Below, piece by piece: positions 56,328 through 63,033 of a stretch of 64,000 bases of DNA. The position numbers were made by a program, and so were the translations under genes. Numbering within the stretch: the stretch's first letter is position 1; each line of letters begins with the position of its first letter. Source of the stretch: Compostimonas suwonensis. GTDB taxonomy: Bacteria; Actinomycetota; Actinomycetes; Actinomycetales; Microbacteriaceae. Location of the stretch: NCBI RefSeq assembly GCF_002797855.1, contig NZ_PGFB01000003.1, positions 62,001 through 126,000 on the forward strand. The letters are read 5' to 3'. Below the pieces are notes generated by a model. That model worked only from the letters and a program-made list of their open reading frames with translations, did not search any database and had not been told where the DNA came from.

Positions 56328-57229
56328 CGGAAGATGATGGTTCGCGCGCCGTCGAGCAGGACCCGGTCTTCGGCGAACCATTTGACGGCCTGCGTGAGGG
56401 TGCGCGACTCCTCGTCCTGCCCGATCGCCACGAGCTCCGAGGCCGAGCGGGAATGGTCGACCCGCACGACGTTCTGCTCGATGATCGGGCCCTCGTCGAG
56501 GTCGCTCGTCACGAAGTGGGCGGTCGCGCCGATGAGCTTGACGCCGCGTGCGTGCGCCTGCTTGTAGGGGTTCGCGCCCTTGAAGCCGGGCAGGAAGGAG
56601 TGGTGGATGTTGATGGCCCGCCCGCTCAGCCGCTCGCACAGCTCGGGGGAGAGGATCTGCATGTACCGGGCGAGCACGACGAGCTCGATGGTGTGCTCCT
56701 CGACGGCCTGCACGACCCGCTCTTCGAAGAGGGCCTTGCTCGCGGCATCCGTCACCGGGATCGACTCGAAGGGCACGCCGTAGAACCCGGCGAGGTCGCG
56801 CAGGGTGCCGTGGTTGCTGAGCACGAGCGGGATCTCGACCGGCAGCTGGCCGGCGCGCTGGCGGAACAGCAGGTCGTTGAGGCAGTGCGCGGCGGTGGAG
56901 GCGAGCACGAGGGTGCGCAGCGGGCGGCCGACCACGTCGAGCTGCCAGGTCATGTCGTAGCGCTCGGTCACGGGGCGCAGCGCGCTCTCGAACTCCTCGC
57001 GCCCGGTCGTCGTCTCGACCTGCAGGCGCATGAAGAAGCGGCCGGTGTCGGCGCTCGAGAACTGCTGGCTCTCGGTGATGTTGCCGCCCGCCGCGACGAC
57101 CGCGCCGCTGATCGCGTGCACGATGCCGGGGCCGTCGGCGCAGACGAGCGTGAGCACCCAGTGGGTGATGCGCTCGGCGTCATGGTGCGCGGGAACGGAG
57201 GCGACGGGGTCAGCCGCAGAAAAGCTCAT
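56324..57229 (-). CDS. purU: formyltetrahydrofolate deformylase
   Basis: The 301-residue enzyme hydrolyses 10-formyl-THF to formate and THF. The N-terminal ACT domain shows V-C-A-D-G-P-G-I-V-H-A-I-S, and the C-terminal formyltransferase-like domain has N-I-H-H-S-F-L-P-G-F-K-G and an L-D-E-G-P-I-I segment. I chose the ATG at 57229, which a leaderless promoter supports; another ATG lies two codons upstream. It is the first gene of the purU, YrdB-like, nagA operon. Confidence 0.95.
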   Translation of the reverse strand: MSFSAADPVASVPAHHDAERITHWVLTLVCADGPGIVHAISGAVVAAGGNITESQQFSSADTGRFFMRLQVETTTGREEFESALRPVTERYDMTWQLDVVGRPLRTLVLASTAAHCLNDLLFRQRAGQLPVEIPLVLSNHGTLRDLAGFYGVPFESIPVTDAASKALFEERVVQAVEEHTIELVVLARYMQILSPELCERLSGRAINIHHSFLPGFKGANPYKQAHARGVKLIGATAHFVTSDLDEGPIIEQNVVRVDHSRSASELVAIGQDEESRTLTQAVKWFAEDRVLLDGARTIIFR

Positions 57230-57235
57230 TGGCAT

Positions 57236-57241
57236 AGGGTA
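57236..57241 (-). promoter_or_regulatory. leaderless promoter -10 of purU
   Basis: Read leftwards, TACCCT lies six bases before the ATG at 57229 and favours it over the ATG at 57235. Confidence 0.5.
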
Positions 57242-57396
57242 ACGCGCTGCGCGGCATGCTTTTCGCGCTGCTCGGCTACACTCGATACCGGTCGGTGGTT
57301 CCCACTCGGCCCTGGGCGCGCCCACGTGCGCGAAGTCGATCCGCCCCGGTCACCGTCAGCCCGTTGCGTGCGGATGCGCCATTCGTGAGCCATTTC

Positions 57397-58620
57397 ATGT
57401 CTGTCACCCAACGTTCCACATCCGTTCAGCCGAAGCCGTTTCCGTGGGTCGGCCTCATCGCGCTCTCGGCGGCGACCTTCCTCTCGGTCACGGGCGAGAT
57501 GATCCCCACGGGCCTGCTGCCCGACATGAGCGCATCGCTCGACGTCTCGGAGTCGCAGATCGGCCTGCTCGTGACCGTCTTCGCCTTCACGGTGGTCGTC
57601 TCGAGCGCGCCGCTCACGATGCTCACCCGGAGGATGCCGCGGCACGCCCTCATCGTCGGCGTGCTGTTCGTGCTCGCCGTCAGCAGCGTGCTCACGGCTC
57701 TCGCCCCCGGCTACGGCTTCGTCGTCGTCTCGCGTGTGATCGGCGGGCTCGCCCACGGCCTCTTCTGGTCGGTCGTCGGGGCGTACGCCGGCCACCTCGT
57801 GCCCAAGGAGCAGATCGGCCGGGCCGTCTCGATCACGATCAGCGGCGGCACTCTCGCGTTCGTGCTCGGCGTGCCGCTCGGCACGGCGCTCGGCCACGCC
57901 TTCGGCTGGCGTCTCGCCTTCGGCGCGCTCGCCGTGCTGCTCGTGGTGGGCGCCGTGCTCGTCTGGCGCTTCCTGCCCACGGTCGACAGAGCGGATGCCG
58001 CGGCCGAGGTCTCCGCGAACCCCGGGCGCCGCCGCGACAGCACCGTGTGGCCCGTGCTGCTCGTCTGCACGATCACCGCCATCACGATGACCGGCCACTA
58101 CGCCTTCTACACCTACATCGCGCCCTACCTGATCGACGTGGTCGGCGTCGACCCGGGCACCATCAGCACCCTGCTGTTCGGCTACGGCGTCGCGGGGGTC
58201 GGCGGTCTCGTGCTCGCCGGATCGGTGTTCGGCCCGAGGCCGCAGATCGGGCTCATCTCCGCCCTTCTCGTCTGCGGCGTCTTCGTCGCCGTGCTCGCGG
58301 CCGCGGCCTCCCTGCCCGTCGTCGCGATCGTCGCGTTCCTGCTCTGGGGCCTCGCCTTCGGCGCCCTTCCCCCACTCCTGCAGACGCGGCTCCTGCACAC
58401 GGCGTCCGCGGCGTTCCGCGACACCGCGAGCGCCATCTACACGACGGCCTTCAACGTGGGGATCGGCGCGGGCGCCCTCGTGGGCGCGCTCGCCTTCGAC
58501 GGTCTCGGCGTCGGGTTCGAGCCGTACGTCTACCTGGGCTTCGTGGCCGTGGCGCTGGTGCTCGTGCTGTCGACGACACGTCGTCGCCGGGTCGGGCCCG
58601 CGGCCGCGGCATCCGCCTGA
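57397..58620 (+). CDS. MFS sugar/drug efflux transporter
   Basis: The 407-residue protein has twelve membrane helices and belongs to the DHA1-like AraJ/NepI/PbuE group: T-G-L-L-P-D-M near residue 37 and R-x-I-G-G-L-A-H-G in helix four. The group exports sugars, purine nucleosides or drugs. The start is uncertain. The ATG at 57397 (MSVTQRS) fits the family length, but no clear ribosome site is seen; a GTG lies at 57385. TACACT at 57277-57282 may be its -10 box. It is divergent from purU. Confidence 0.85.
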   Translation: MSVTQRSTSVQPKPFPWVGLIALSAATFLSVTGEMIPTGLLPDMSASLDVSESQIGLLVTVFAFTVVVSSAPLTMLTRRMPRHALIVGVLFVLAVSSVLTALAPGYGFVVVSRVIGGLAHGLFWSVVGAYAGHLVPKEQIGRAVSITISGGTLAFVLGVPLGTALGHAFGWRLAFGALAVLLVVGAVLVWRFLPTVDRADAAAEVSANPGRRRDSTVWPVLLVCTITAITMTGHYAFYTYIAPYLIDVVGVDPGTISTLLFGYGVAGVGGLVLAGSVFGPRPQIGLISALLVCGVFVAVLAAAASLPVVAIVAFLLWGLAFGALPPLLQTRLLHTASAAFRDTASAIYTTAFNVGIGAGALVGALAFDGLGVGFEPYVYLGFVAVALVLVLSTTRRRRVGPAAAASA

Positions 58621-58676
58621 CGCGTCGCGCGCCGGCCCCGGCGGACAGCCCTCGCCTCGGGTGGTCGCGGCGTCGC

Positions 58677-58734
58677 GCGAGTCGCGCCAGATCGTCGTCT
58701 GTGTGCTGTTTCAGAACGATGTGACGCGACTCGC
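58677..58734. terminator. intergenic hairpin between convergent genes
   Basis: Arms at 58677-58695 and 58716-58734 pair at 17 of 19 positions. The element lies between the convergent MFS and sigma-factor genes and can end both transcripts. Confidence 0.6.
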
Positions 58735-58742
58735 CCGGGCGA

Positions 58743-61007
58743 TCAGATCAGTCCGACCTGGACTCCGATGGCCGTGGCCGGCTGGATGCGCTCGGGATGC
58801 AGCGGGTCGACGTAGCTCGCGGTCAGGGTCACGGTGTGCGCCCAGAACGTGAACTCGGCCTCGAACACCGGTGACTCGCCCGGCGCGGGGGAGAGACAGG
58901 TCTTCGTTCCCCCGTCGAGCATGCAGACCTCGACCTGCGCGCCCTCCGGGTAGTCCAGCTGCATGACGATCGTCGACGACAGCCAGGGGAGGCTCGACCC
59001 GTTGGCCGGCGAGAGGATCGTCGGGCCCGCGGGCACGTCGAGCGTCAGCGGCGCGCTCGCCTCGGAGACGTTGCCCGAGGGGTCGGTCTGGAGCGCCCGC
59101 ACGAGGTACCGGCCGCCGGCCAGTGCGAGCGGCGATGCGACCCAGGTGCCCGCGTCGTCGGCCGTCGACGCCTCGATCGGTCGTCCGTCGATCTGCTGAG
59201 CGACGGGCACGCCGTCGATCGTCGTCACCTGGAAGGCGACCGTGGCGCCGGGCTCCGCGGTTCCGCGCAGCTCGGGGTACAGCCAGCTCGGGGCGTCGCC
59301 GGCGGTCACGACGGGAGGCAGGGCCTCGGTGTCGGCCGGCGGCTCCGGGTCGGTGGGCTCCTCGGGCTCCGTCGGGGTCTCCGGATCCGTCGGGGTCTCC
59401 GGGTCGGTGGGGGTCTCCGGGTCGACGGGCACTTCGGGGTCGGTCGGCGGGTCGACCGGAACCTCGGGGTCGACCGGCGTCTGCGGGTCGGCGGGCTCGT
59501 TCGGCACGACCGGTTTCTGCGGCTCCGTCGGCTTGACGGGGTCGGACGGCTTCACCGGGTCGTCGGGCACCGGCCGGGGGTCGCGCACGGGCGTGCGGGT
59601 GACGGGAGGCTCGGGAGCCACCGGCGCCTGCTCCACAACGGGAGGGACGACGGGGGGCTGCGGATCGGCCGCCGGCGCCTGAGAGCCGGTGTCATCCGCG
59701 TCGCTCGGCGCCTCGGCGGTGCCCTGCTCGGCGCCCGCGATCGGCTCCGAGGTGGGCGGCGCCCAGAGGGACGGGCCGAGGGTCACGGCTGCCGCGATGC
59801 CCGCGGCGACGAGGGCGGTCACGACGGTTCCGGCGATGACGCCCGTGGCGACGCTCGCGCCCGCTGCGGCGCCGGCTCCGGCAGCCGCACCGGCCGCGGC
59901 TCCGCCAGCCGCAGCTCCGCCGGCTCCAGCTCCGCCAGCCGCAGCTCCGCCGGCTCCAGCTCCGCCGGCTCCAGCTCCGCCGGCTCCAGCTCCGCCGGCT
60001 CCAGCTCCGCCGACTCCAGCGCCGCCGACTCCAGCGCCGCCGGATGCCCCGGCTCCGGCCCCCGCGCCGACTCCGGCCCCGACGGTCGTGCCCGTGCCGA
60101 CGACCGACGCCCCGCCCGCGCCCATGGCCATCGTCGCGACGGGCGCGCCGGCCTGCAGCCAGGCGAGGTAGCCGGTCGCGCCGGCGACGCCCGCTGCGAG
60201 GGGCAGCAGCACGAGGGCGAGACGGGAGTCGACATCCTTCGCCTCGGCGGCGACGATCGTGCACTTGGCGCAGCCGTCGAGGTGCGTCTCGATACGACGG
60301 GACTCGCGGATGCCGGTGCCGCCACGGGTGTACGCGGCGAGGCGTTCGATCGTCCACCGGCAGTCCGAGTCGGCCGGGGCGGCGTTGAGGTGCGACTGGA
60401 TCCAGGCCTGACGCAGGCCCTCGCGCGCCCGGTAGCAGAGGGCCGCGACCGCGTTCGCCTTCATGCCGAGCAGCGGGGCCATCTCCTGGGGGGTCATCCC
60501 CTCGACCTCGCTGTACCAGAGCGCCTCCTGCCAGCGGGTCGGAAGCGATTGGAACGCCCGGGCGGTGAGGCTCCTGTCGAGGGCCTCGAGGGTCTTCTCG
60601 TCGCTGAACGCGGGATCCTCGAACGACTCCAGGGTGTCGATCGACGTCTCCTGGCGTTTGCGGCCCCACTCGGCGGCGGTGTTGCGCACCGTCGTGAACA
60701 GGTACGGGCGGAACGCGCCCGTGGGCCCGCCGCCCTTCTGGATGGCCTGGAAGACCTTCGCGAACGCCTCGGAGACGAGGTCGTCGGGGTCGAGGCTCGA
60801 GGTGTACGAACGGGCGACCGTGCGCGCGGACTGCGCGTGCCTCGTCCAGAGCTCGGCGAAGGCCGCCGAGTCCCCGGAGCGCGTGAGCTCGATGAGCTCG
60901 GCGTCGCTCAGCCCATCGCCCGGTGCGCGGCGCAACGGCGGTCTGAGGGCCACAATCTCTCCGGGGGTTCGGGCGAAGGTGCGGCGATCGTCTCGATTTA
61001 ATGTCAT
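58743..61007 (-). CDS. giant ECF sigma factor with zinc finger, membrane and extracellular regions
   Basis: The protein of about 754 residues joins several parts. Sigma region 2 (residues 35-110, with D-P-D-D-L-V-S-E-A-F) and region 4 (about 150-195, L-P-T-R-W-Q-E-A-L-W) are followed by an anti-sigma-type zinc finger, H-L-D-G-C-A-K-C, near 250. Then come a hydrophobic segment, a Gly/Ala repeat, a second hydrophobic helix (about 405-430), a Pro/Thr/Asp-rich stalk and an outside region with Ig-like and cell-wall-protein features (about 570-754). The make-up is like actinobacterial ECF groups with long C-terminal extensions (such as ECF52). The ATG at 61007 is my choice; 61037 is another. Confidence 0.85.
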   Translation of the reverse strand: MTLNRDDRRTFARTPGEIVALRPPLRRAPGDGLSDAELIELTRSGDSAAFAELWTRHAQSARTVARSYTSSLDPDDLVSEAFAKVFQAIQKGGGPTGAFRPYLFTTVRNTAAEWGRKRQETSIDTLESFEDPAFSDEKTLEALDRSLTARAFQSLPTRWQEALWYSEVEGMTPQEMAPLLGMKANAVAALCYRAREGLRQAWIQSHLNAAPADSDCRWTIERLAAYTRGGTGIRESRRIETHLDGCAKCTIVAAEAKDVDSRLALVLLPLAAGVAGATGYLAWLQAGAPVATMAMGAGGASVVGTGTTVGAGVGAGAGAGASGGAGVGGAGVGGAGAGGAGAGGAGAGGAGAGGAAAGGAGAGGAAAGGAAAGAAAGAGAAAGASVATGVIAGTVVTALVAAGIAAAVTLGPSLWAPPTSEPIAGAEQGTAEAPSDADDTGSQAPAADPQPPVVPPVVEQAPVAPEPPVTRTPVRDPRPVPDDPVKPSDPVKPTEPQKPVVPNEPADPQTPVDPEVPVDPPTDPEVPVDPETPTDPETPTDPETPTEPEEPTDPEPPADTEALPPVVTAGDAPSWLYPELRGTAEPGATVAFQVTTIDGVPVAQQIDGRPIEASTADDAGTWVASPLALAGGRYLVRALQTDPSGNVSEASAPLTLDVPAGPTILSPANGSSLPWLSSTIVMQLDYPEGAQVEVCMLDGGTKTCLSPAPGESPVFEAEFTFWAHTVTLTASYVDPLHPERIQPATAIGVQVGLI
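59898..60046 (-). repeat. 15-base tandem repeats coding for Gly/Ala repeats
   Basis: About ten units of GCCGGCTCCAGCTCC or close variants run in frame through the sigma-factor gene and encode G-G-A-G-A on the minus strand. Unit number can vary without a frameshift. Confidence 0.75.
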
Positions 61008-61620
61008 CTCATCTGAGGAGACGACGAGATCGCACATCCATGACGCGGTTCGGGGGTATTTGCGGCTAATTCTACGCGTGAGGCCCTCTCAGGCCGCATC
61101 CGAGGGGGCTGGAACCCCGGTTTCACCCCCGTATCACCCCCGTATCACCCCCGAAAAGGGTTCAGGGGAGCCCGTCGAGACGATCGCGCAGAAATTTCTT
61201 GGAAAAAGTTCGCAAACCCGCGTCATAAACCCCGGGACCTCCCCTCTCTTAGTGCAGAGGCGAAGCCCAGATGCCAGGAGAGGCACATCTCCCTGACGGC
61301 GAAGCAGCCTTCACAGCACGGAGCCCTGGCGATGTGCTGAGCAAGACCATCGCGATCGACCCGAACGTCGCGAGGAGGCACCCGGTGAGCTAGGGGGAGC
61401 GCGAGAGCGCACTGGTTCCCGGGAAAAGTGTGGGGGTTGGGTGATCCGGGGGGACACCCAGCCCTCACTCTGCCTCGGCCAGGAGATACCCCGGTCGTCT
61501 GCTCGTGCCGCCGGGGTCACCCGCGCCCCGCCACCCGGCTCCGGGCCCCTCGGCGTCCGCCCGTCGTCTGCACCGGCCTTCCCGGCGTCTCCTCCGCCGA
61601 TCATCGCGACGCGCGGCTGC
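61008..61620. other. long non-coding stretch upstream of sigma factor and glyA
   Basis: No convincing gene is seen; the frames here have coding patterns unlike the neighbours. At 61118-61155 the 11-base unit (T/T)ATCACCCCCG occurs three times in slightly varied form, on the promoter side of the sigma gene. An AT-rich part lies near 61190-61235. The sigma-gene promoter should lie here but I cannot place it. Confidence 0.5.
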
Positions 61621-61626
61621 TAAACT
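61621..61626 (+). promoter_or_regulatory. -10 element of glyA-folD
   Basis: TAAACT would start transcription near 61633, at the first bases of the riboswitch. Confidence 0.55.
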
Positions 61627-61631
61627 CGCGG

Positions 61632-61703
61632 ATGTCGCGACTGGCGTTCAGATGGTCACCATCGGGGAGCGATTGACACGGATTCGGCCGTACGCCTGGG
61701 CCG
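61632..61703 (+). ncRNA. ZTP/ZMP riboswitch (pfl motif)
   Basis: The region shows the conserved parts of the pfl RNA in the right order. CGCGACTGGCG (61636-61646) forms the first domain. GGTCACC and CGGGGAGCG follow. CCGTACGCCTGGGC (61688-61701) is the second conserved domain. The class binds ZMP/ZTP, which builds up when 10-formyl-THF is short, and it switches on one-carbon genes. glyA and folD downstream are classic targets. The ribosome site AAGGAG lies at 61738-61743; the switching stem in between is not clear to me. Confidence 0.9.
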
Positions 61704-61749
61704 AAACGGATACCGTAGTTTCTGCCGCCATGTCACGAAGGAGCCAGTC

Positions 61750-63033
61750 TTGTCCGACCGTCTGCCATCCACCTTCAACGAACCGCTCTCCGTCGTCGAT
61801 CCGGAGATCGCCGAGGTTCTCGAACTCGAACTGGGCCGTCAGCGCGACACCCTCGAGATGATCGCGAGCGAGAACTTCGTTCCCGTCTCGGTTCTGCAGT
61901 CGCAGGGCTCCGTGCTCACGAACAAGTACGCCGAAGGCTACCCGGGCCGCCGCTACTACGGCGGCTGCGAATACGTCGACATCGCCGAGCAGCTCGCGAT
62001 CGACCGCGCCAAGAAGCTCTTCGGCGCCGAGTACGCGAACGTGCAGCCGCACTCGGGCGCCTCCGCGAACGCGGCCGTGCTCTCGGCCGTCGCGACCCCC
62101 GGCGACACGATCCTCGGCCTCGAGCTCTCGCACGGCGGCCACCTCACCCACGGCATGAAGCTCAACTTCTCGGGCAAGCTCTACAACGCCGTCTCCTACG
62201 GCGTCGACCCGGAGACCTTCCTCGTCGACATGGACGTCGTGCGCGACAAGGCCCTCGAGCACAAGCCCCGCGTCATCATCGCCGGCTGGTCGGCCTACCC
62301 GCGCCACCTCGACTTCGCGGCGTTCCGCGCGATCGCCGACGAGGTGGGCGCCACGCTCTGGGTCGACATGGCGCACTTCGCCGGACTCGTCGCGGCAGGC
62401 CTGCATCCGTCGCCCGTGCCCTACGCCGACGTCGTGAGCTCGACCGTGCACAAGACGATCGGCGGCCCGCGCTCGGGCTTCATCGTGAGCCGTGACACCG
62501 AGCTCGCCAAGAAGCTCAACTCGAACGTCTTCCCCGGCCAGCAGGGCGGCCCGCTCATGCACGTCATCGCGGCCAAGGCGACGGCGTTCAAGCTCGCCGG
62601 CACGGAGGAGTTCCGCGACCGGCAGGAGCGCACCATCCGAGGCGCCGCCATCCTCGCCGACCGCCTGACCGCCGACGACTCGAAGGCCGACGGCGTCGAC
62701 GTGCTCACCGGAGGCACCGACGTGCACCTCGTCCTCGCCGACCTGCGCGACTCGCCGCTCGACGGCCAGCAGGCCGAAGACGTGCTGCACGAGGTCGGCA
62801 TCACGGTCAACCGCAACGCGGTTCCCTTCGACCCGCGCCCGCCCATGGTCACCTCGGGTCTGCGCATCGGAACGCCCGCACTCGCGACCCGCGGCTTCGG
62901 CGACGCCGAGTTCACCGAGGTCGCCGACATCATCGCGCTGGCCCTCAAGCCGGGCGCGGATGTCGCGGCTCTCCGCGCGCGCGTGAAGAACCTCACGGGC
63001 GCCTTCCCGCTCTACCCGGGCCTGCAGCAGTGA
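61750..63033 (+). CDS. glyA: serine hydroxymethyltransferase
   Basis: The 427-residue PLP enzyme turns serine and THF into glycine and 5,10-methylene-THF. It shows I-A-S-E-N-F near residue 38, [13 protein letters not shown], and the PLP lysine Lys235 in [14 protein letters not shown]. The start is TTG at 61750, seven bases after AAGGAG. A ZTP riboswitch precedes it. It overlaps folD by four bases (GTGA). Confidence 0.97.

Follow-up and report, generated by a model that had tools for sequence, protein, structure and literature searches.

What does a sigma factor that carries its own membrane-anchored outside part respond to, and which genes does it switch on? The question is raised by a gene on the minus strand of a 64,000-nucleotide stretch of Compostimonas suwonensis DNA (contig NZ_PGFB01000003.1, positions 62,001 to 126,000; hereafter the window), which encodes an extracytoplasmic function (ECF) sigma factor, an anti-sigma zinc finger, a membrane part and an outside part in one chain. 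Our results support, with moderate confidence, a model in which this protein is a sigma factor tethered to the membrane, inhibited in cis and autoregulated, and in which its family has a role in wall-anchored surface proteins. An earlier note on this DNA, made from the sequence alone, had suggested that the protein may sense the cell wall and be released by proteolysis; the evidence points less to the wall as a whole and more to surface proteins anchored in it. The single-chain architecture itself is already known, and the interesting part is the surface-protein link.

An open-frame scan of the window gives 764 uninterrupted codons at 58743-61037 on the minus strand (residue numbers follow this frame). 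The earlier note had placed sigma, anti-sigma, membrane and outside parts in one chain, and the single open frame and its Pfam domains bear this out. Both sigma regions are intact and exceed their Pfam gathering scores (Sigma70_r2, residues 63-129, 38.4 bits against a cut-off of 24; Sigma70_r4_2, residues 160-206, 27.6 bits against 25.7), and the ECF superfamily profile TIGR02937 (72.5 bits; cut-off 42.9) assigns the protein to the ECF (group IV) sigma factors. After region 4 stands a complete zinc finger (zf-HC2, residues 226-259, 30.1 bits against 22.2) with the spacing C-x25-H-x3-C-x2-C. The H-x3-C-x2-C motif of the earlier note is thus present, but its ligand set was one short: the fourth ligand is a cysteine 26 residues before the histidine, and all four (the columns of C226, H252, C256 and C259) are unchanged in 62 of 62 aligned sequences. 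Positions 204-268 of the family profile match the ChrR anti-sigma chains 2q1z_B and 2z2s_B (E 3e-4), and this match, the ligand pattern and the short domain behind region 4 are those of a class I zinc-binding anti-sigma (ZAS) domain; we infer that the finger inhibits the sigma part in cis. In an AlphaFold model of residues 27-309 (mean predicted local distance difference test score, pLDDT, 81.6) the sigma domains match known folds, whereas the predicted template modelling score (pTM), which bears on the packing of the sigma and ZAS domains, is only 0.53.

Two hydrophobic segments follow, with a Gly/Ala linker between them. The linker had been attributed to 15-base tandem repeats, and such an array was found at 59899-60043 (9.7 copies, 90% matches), encoding part of it; across members, the linker ranges from 5 to 130 aa. 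Charge statistics were collected for the 15 residues before and the 30 after segment 2 in 108 distinct members (L and G numbers denote loci and genomes). Left out were 30 frames that lacked a complete finger, were too short or were duplicates, as well as L009, which duplicates L029, and L001, which is the window itself. Before the segment there are 97 K/R against 13 D/E, with 57 members positive, 2 negative and 49 neutral; after it there are 86 K/R against 376 D/E, with 1 member positive and 92 negative. Because of this K/R excess before and D/E excess after it, segment 2 is predicted to lie N-in/C-out in the family. Segment 1, in which a Pro and a Gly are nearly invariant and for which AlphaFold gives two short low-confidence helices, is probably no simple transmembrane span. 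If both segments spanned the membrane, the stalk and the Ig modules would be inside the cell. Most likely, the Gly/Ala linker is on the cytoplasmic side, and linker and segment 1 are inside or dip into the membrane.

The Pro-rich stalk and immunoglobulin (Ig)-like modules read by the earlier note hold up as a Pro/Glu stalk followed by predicted beta modules. Big_13 matches residues 588-667 with 22.9 bits, under the Pfam cut-off of 27, and the C-terminal 190 aa were modelled as beta modules with a mean pLDDT of 74.7 and a pTM of 0.58. The best Protein Data Bank matches of these modules are to bacterial adhesins (Bap C region, SiiE); numerous Fn3 pairs rank below them, and all listed TM-scores are under 0.5. 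The Pfam scan of the window protein found no NPCBM and no other carbohydrate-binding domain. The window protein also carries no C-terminal LPXTG/LAXTG sorting signal, and one of 112 family members (L149) does.

Two boxes at a constant distance, CGCGTMATR-N15-CGTCTC, recur in the upstream regions of orthologues, and this site upstream of the gene and its relatives is new here. In 1.406 Mb of sequence (the named loci plus the window), a gap of 15 gave 14 exact and 19 one-mismatch matches; gaps of 12-14 and 16-18 gave 0 exact matches and at most 1 with one mismatch. Within about 450 bases 5' of the sigma gene, the site is found with at most one mismatch in 23 of 71 loci and with at most two in 40 of 71, whereas 882 control windows taken from these loci gave 0 and 4 matches; because the motif was derived partly from those 71 regions, these counts show the spread of the site and are not an independent test of it. 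The site tracks the sigma gene across several actinobacterial families. An exact copy in the window (site B, Table 1) is a predicted promoter that would drive the sigma gene itself; the gene would be autoregulated if, as we infer, the tethered sigma factor reads CGCGTMATR-N15-CGTCTC. A second copy, site A, is well conserved in several Microbacterium and Agromyces loci, where no divergent gene was recognised. Between the two lies an 11-base tandem repeat (61114-61153, about 3.6 copies of ACCCCCGTATC), a possible operator.

The direction in which the site is read was judged from targets with a gene start within 200 bases of it. An N-terminal signal or membrane segment is encoded by 17 of 47 non-sigma targets in the favoured direction versus 2 of 42 in the opposite one (Fisher p 2e-4); of the 17, L280 and L290 probably represent antisense frames, and the two opposite-direction matches (L253, L264) belong to sites inside called genes. 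Where a conserved divergent partner gene is present (25 loci), the best site with at most three mismatches points to the partner in 23 and to the sigma gene in 0, while 2 loci have no such site; 7 of the 23 partner-directed sites carry three mismatches. By a loose rule, Shine-Dalgarno-like sequences are suitably spaced at many targets. The reversed pattern GAGACG-N15-YATKACGCG, firing at the sigma gene from site A, was dropped since the gene-start, signal-peptide and divergent-partner comparisons favour the opposite direction. The partner protein, of about 220-280 aa, is usually divergent from sigma behind a shared site (L124:9047-9811, L137:8992-9759, L142:9080-9748, L159:1797-2558). No Pfam family scored above its cut-off in the eight partner proteins scanned; a DPLTGL-like stretch suggests a degenerate GGDEF-like fold, with a weak GGDEF_2 match (E 0.0035) in one member. 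Ten loci (L220, L227, L240, L243, L244, L256, L283, L289, L290, L295) have a copy of the site 10-75 bases past the sigma stop, in one constant direction, often between convergent genes and with no evident target.

A search of 398 family genomes gave 74 matches to the exact site, spread over 54 genomes, and reversed-pattern controls sum to 6. At least 10 genes for surface proteins of the sortase-anchored kind have the site in front of them in related genomes, which belong to other genera of the family. Scans of ten targets each with Pfam and NCBIfam gave SdrD_B, Big_8, SpaA, DUF5979, ice-binding-like adhesive and choice-of-anchor domains; LAVTG-type signals were also found, of which a single one exceeded its cut-off. 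A sorting-signal-like end is present in 10 of the 14 signal-bearing targets that were fetched. A Fisher test of these 10 of 14 against the 10 of 827 frames with a sorting signal in the named loci was set aside as biased, the 14 having been picked for signal peptides; the fairer comparison is at least 10 of 47 non-sigma targets against 10 of 827 frames, and four of the latter ten are the L149 sigma gene and Arthrobacter pilins near L149 or its relatives. Signal peptides, sorting signals and genes in relatives were called by simple rules (hydropathy, motif, GC by codon position) and not by trained predictors. The genome of C. suwonensis itself holds 3 sortase matches and 11 LAVTG-type signals over the model's cut-off.

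Surface-protein genes also stand beside paralogues. One genome of 3.8 Mb (G003) has 27 matches to the sigma factor, most with long frames, and 24 of these places were fetched (L029-L048, L065-L068). In 40 paralogue regions, hand-picked mostly from multicopy genomes and not a random sample, the sigma gene stands immediately behind a gene for an LxxTG protein in 23 of the 38 single-chain loci, with a gap of -112 to 194 bases on the longest frame. These giants have open frames of 1,052-1,803 residues, many of them cut by the locus edge, and a Pfam scan of five of them gave Big_9, SdrD_B, DUF5979 or related domains. The outside domains of the G003 sigma copies that stand behind giant genes differ from copy to copy. 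In three Arthrobacter loci (L143, L149, L159), the sigma gene is in or near a cluster of tip protein, LPxTG pilin and sortase genes. At L149:9944-12535 (Arthrobacter alkaliphilus), the sigma protein runs on into GramPos_pilinD1, pilinBB and SpaA domains and an LPTTG signal, its outside half being a sortase pilin, and genes for tip, pilin and sortase follow.

Taken as a mechanism, our model would have the fused class I ZAS domain keep sigma regions 2 and 4 silent in cis, the flexible Gly/Ala linker tie that domain to one N-in/C-out membrane helix, and the Pro/Glu stalk present adhesin-like Ig modules outside the cell. The outside trigger may be an altered state of wall-anchored surface proteins, or of the wall around the stalk. 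By analogy with the fused sigma factors described below, the sigma part would probably be freed by stepwise proteolysis, or possibly by a change of shape that loosens the zinc finger. Once free, it would read CGCGTMATR-N15-CGTCTC promoters: its own (site B) and, family-wide, those of sortase-anchored adhesin and pilus genes, which may include an adhesin gene in the window's own genome.

Several observations weigh against this model. At sigma genes, exact sites occur in either orientation relative to sigma (12 and 9), so that site A has no explanation in the model, and about 17 of the 74 exact sites fall within called frames. The excess over controls shrinks as mismatches are allowed: about 86 sites versus 48 controls in 59 genomes at up to one mismatch, and 43 versus 31 in the C. 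suwonensis genome at up to two. In that genome, none of the 19 places matching the shorter pattern with at most one mismatch has an adhesin gene within 250 bases, and two exact sites occur beyond the sigma locus. One (C4:106444, locus L174) precedes a 64-aa frame with a Shine-Dalgarno-like sequence, behind a gene recognised as fumarase/aspartase-like; at the other (C2:5046), the only good gene, recognised as an ABC transporter ATPase, lies in the unfavoured direction. All 23 neighbours with giant genes come from three genomes (G003 17, G019 4, G017 2), which lowers our confidence. Such adjacency is rare in the named set (2 of 60 flagged, one of them doubtful), and the glyA-linked copies have no adjacent surface-protein gene. 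The paralogue loci (G003, G019 and others) mostly lack the site, with a match of at most two mismatches anywhere in 6 of 40, so the paralogues may read another site. In the charge comparison, the window protein is, with 48 other members, neutral before segment 2.

The gene has many relatives. Matches at E <1e-30 were found in 13 of 39 other genomes searched, and at E <= 1e-15 in 79 of 148 genomes of the class, the latter not all single chains; since some named records are also G genomes (e.g. L157 and G009), counts from separate searches are not additive. The neighbours glyA, folD, nagA, a major facilitator superfamily (MFS) gene and purU, all named by recognition, were searched for with tblastn in 129 loci. 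One or more of them occur in 22 loci, and in 8 of those the sigma gene lies between glyA on one side and MFS or purU on the other. Judged by record title or kinship, the 22 loci are from Microbacteriaceae, except L093, which is titled Planococcus sp. APC 4015. The gene order and sequence of this record are Microbacteriaceae-like, and its name looks wrong. The shared gene order thus indicates that the window gene is an old member of the family whose location has stayed constant. When 139 sequences were placed in a tree, its protein fell among Microbacteriaceae copies, its exact place being unsupported (0.004). Members of the SCO4117 type that end in NPCBM (L360, L362, L363, L365) form, with L155, a separate clade (support 0.987) within the same tree, whose deep branches are weak. 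A split of the gene in other strains, which the earlier note had named as a sign against its reading, was met in other species, with breaks or truncations in at least seven relatives (L004, L058, L059, which is the L157 gene, the second copy in L047, L116, L156 and L158). At L092:8438-11806 (Agromyces bauzanensis), one frame runs from an RtcB ligase into the sigma factor, which may reflect a genuine fusion or an error in the sequence.

ECF52 proteins are built as single chains in which a sigma domain and a zinc finger are joined to one or more membrane segments and a Pro-rich part outside, and proteolytic release has been proposed for such chains (PMC5826349, PMC8999054). By its published description, the ECF52 protein SCO4117 of Streptomyces coelicolor has the same plan as the window protein, which has the sigma part, zinc finger, membrane segment and Pro-rich extension of this group. 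It lacks the C-terminal carbohydrate-binding domain, has Ig-like modules instead, and belongs to a clade other than that of the NPCBM members. The site in the window is also unlike the motif CSGYN-17bp-SRHA reported for SCO4117. ECF48 and ECF53 are likewise described as C-terminal fusions with a zinc finger and one or two membrane helices, with activation expected through proteolysis (PMC8999054), and glycosyl hydrolase or carbohydrate-binding domains are predicted in some proteins of ECF52/53 (PMC10766802). IutY (ECF243) of Pseudomonas putida is likewise a fusion of sigma and membrane anti-sigma from which stepwise proteolysis frees sigma, but it belongs to an iron-starvation system answering aerobactin (PMC8999054). 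In the open-licence literature, which leaves out most subscription journals, we found no paper linking the family to sortase substrates and no description of a sigma-pilin chain.

A bolder proposal, which we make tentatively, is that these proteins are surface-assembly sensors: the outside half would imitate the sortase-anchored fibres or adhesins that the sigma factor switches on, and the state of the cell's own fibres, whether anchored, pulled, missing or mis-sorted, would directly set sigma release, closing a feedback loop within one polypeptide. The complete LPTTG pilin in one Arthrobacter member is the extreme case for such imitation. The SigI/RsgI system of Clostridium thermocellum follows a similar principle, in that the outside domains of RsgI resemble those of the surface proteins under its control; SigI and RsgI are two proteins, and SigI is not known as an ECF sigma factor with a ZAS domain. 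IutY is not known to have an Ig or pilin outside part. Some chaplins are sortase-anchored. Expression of rdl and chp is strongly reduced in an SCO4117 mutant (PMC5826349).

The window protein might instead be a usual sigma factor of the ECF52-like kind, with carbohydrate or wall material as its signal and genes of growth or development as its targets; the sortase link would then come from expanded paralogues and certain genomes and would not extend to the window's copy. Its SCO4117-like plan, the NPCBM members in the same tree, the nagA gene (amino-sugar use) adjoining several orthologues, the lack of an adhesin under the motif in its own genome and the restriction of giant-gene adjacency to three genomes would all fit. 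We nevertheless regard this as somewhat unlikely, given that the protein has no carbohydrate-binding domain in Pfam and that the motif found at its promoter also lies in front of sortase adhesin genes elsewhere in the family, in other genera. The site, known from comparison alone, could also belong to another regulator or sigma factor that governs both the sigma gene and the surface-protein genes, with the tethered sigma factor reading something else. Consistent with this, G003, the genome richest in paralogues, has no exact site and few weaker ones, and some sites have no evident target. However, the site follows the sigma gene through several actinobacterial families, and rigidly spaced boxes with CGTC in the downstream box are what we take to be ECF-promoter-like, so we think a separate regulator distinctly unlikely.

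How the sigma part becomes active is a separate matter. A change of shape or the loss of zinc might suffice without cutting, the whole protein then binding polymerase at the membrane; the long flexible linker would allow this, and with the anti-sigma domain in the same chain, domain opening alone would be enough for release. Against it, IutY, described in 2022 as the only fused sigma factor of this type whose mechanism has been worked out by experiment, is cut (PMC8999054), and SCO4117 cut down to its sigma part keeps some activity (PMC5826349), so that activation without cutting seems to us rather unlikely. That the protein is a passive relic, with a decaying outside or anti-sigma part, is very improbable: there are low-complexity repeats and broken relatives, but the zinc ligands are invariant, the sigma regions are over their cut-offs, the frame is open, and synteny and promoter are conserved.

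The start of the gene deserves a comment before its coordinates are given (Table 1). The earlier note had begun it at ATG 61007, which is doubtful because GGAGAG precedes GTG 60953 and most strong homologues begin to align at residues 30 to 44, though one (G017) does so at residue 2; GTG 60953 is probably the true start. A start at 61037 is unlikely because predicted promoter B sits there. A scan of 57200-61800 for sigma-70 promoters and terminators found none.

Table 1. Features of the tethered sigma factor locus, in window coordinates
Feature	Position	Strand	Basis or remark
Longest frame	58743-61037	-	764 aa
Single-chain ECF sigma factor gene, likely coding sequence	58743..60953	-	736 aa, GTG 60953 start
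Two Ig/Fn3-like outside modules (about 576-764)	58746..59312	-	Big_13 (below cut-off), structure model
Pro/Glu/Asp-rich stalk (about 430-575)	59313..59750	-	protein sequence
Hydrophobic segment 2 (400-418), predicted transmembrane helix	59784..59840	-	hydropathy, family charge statistics
Uncharged Gly/Ala linker (292-399)	59841..60164	-	family comparison
Hydrophobic segment 1 (273-291), conserved Pro and Gly	60165..60221	-	hydropathy, alignment, model
ZAS-type anti-sigma zinc finger (C226, H252, C256, C259)	60261..60362	-	zf-HC2 profile, family alignment
Sigma region 4 (residues 160-206)	60420..60560	-	Sigma70_r4_2 profile
Sigma region 2 (residues 63-129)	60651..60851	-	Sigma70_r2 profile
Shine-Dalgarno-like GGAGAG, 5' of GTG 60953	60957..60962	-	read from sequence
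Site B, CGCGTCATG-N15-CGTCTC	61018..61047	-	exact; predicted to drive the sigma gene
Site A	61219..61248	+	one mismatch; would fire away from the sigma gene, with glyA about 500 bases off in that direction

To our knowledge, little is known of how Gram-positive bacteria match the synthesis of adhesins and pili to the state of the finished surface. With sensor and sigma factor in one chain, a predicted promoter, and sortase substrates near or downstream of it in relatives, the model of a tethered sigma factor serving wall-anchored surface proteins is directly testable. If it is true, the tethered sigma factors of Actinomycetota, on which little work has been done, may share one task, and the 27 matches in G003 would offer a ready-made series of sensors that differ in their outside domains.

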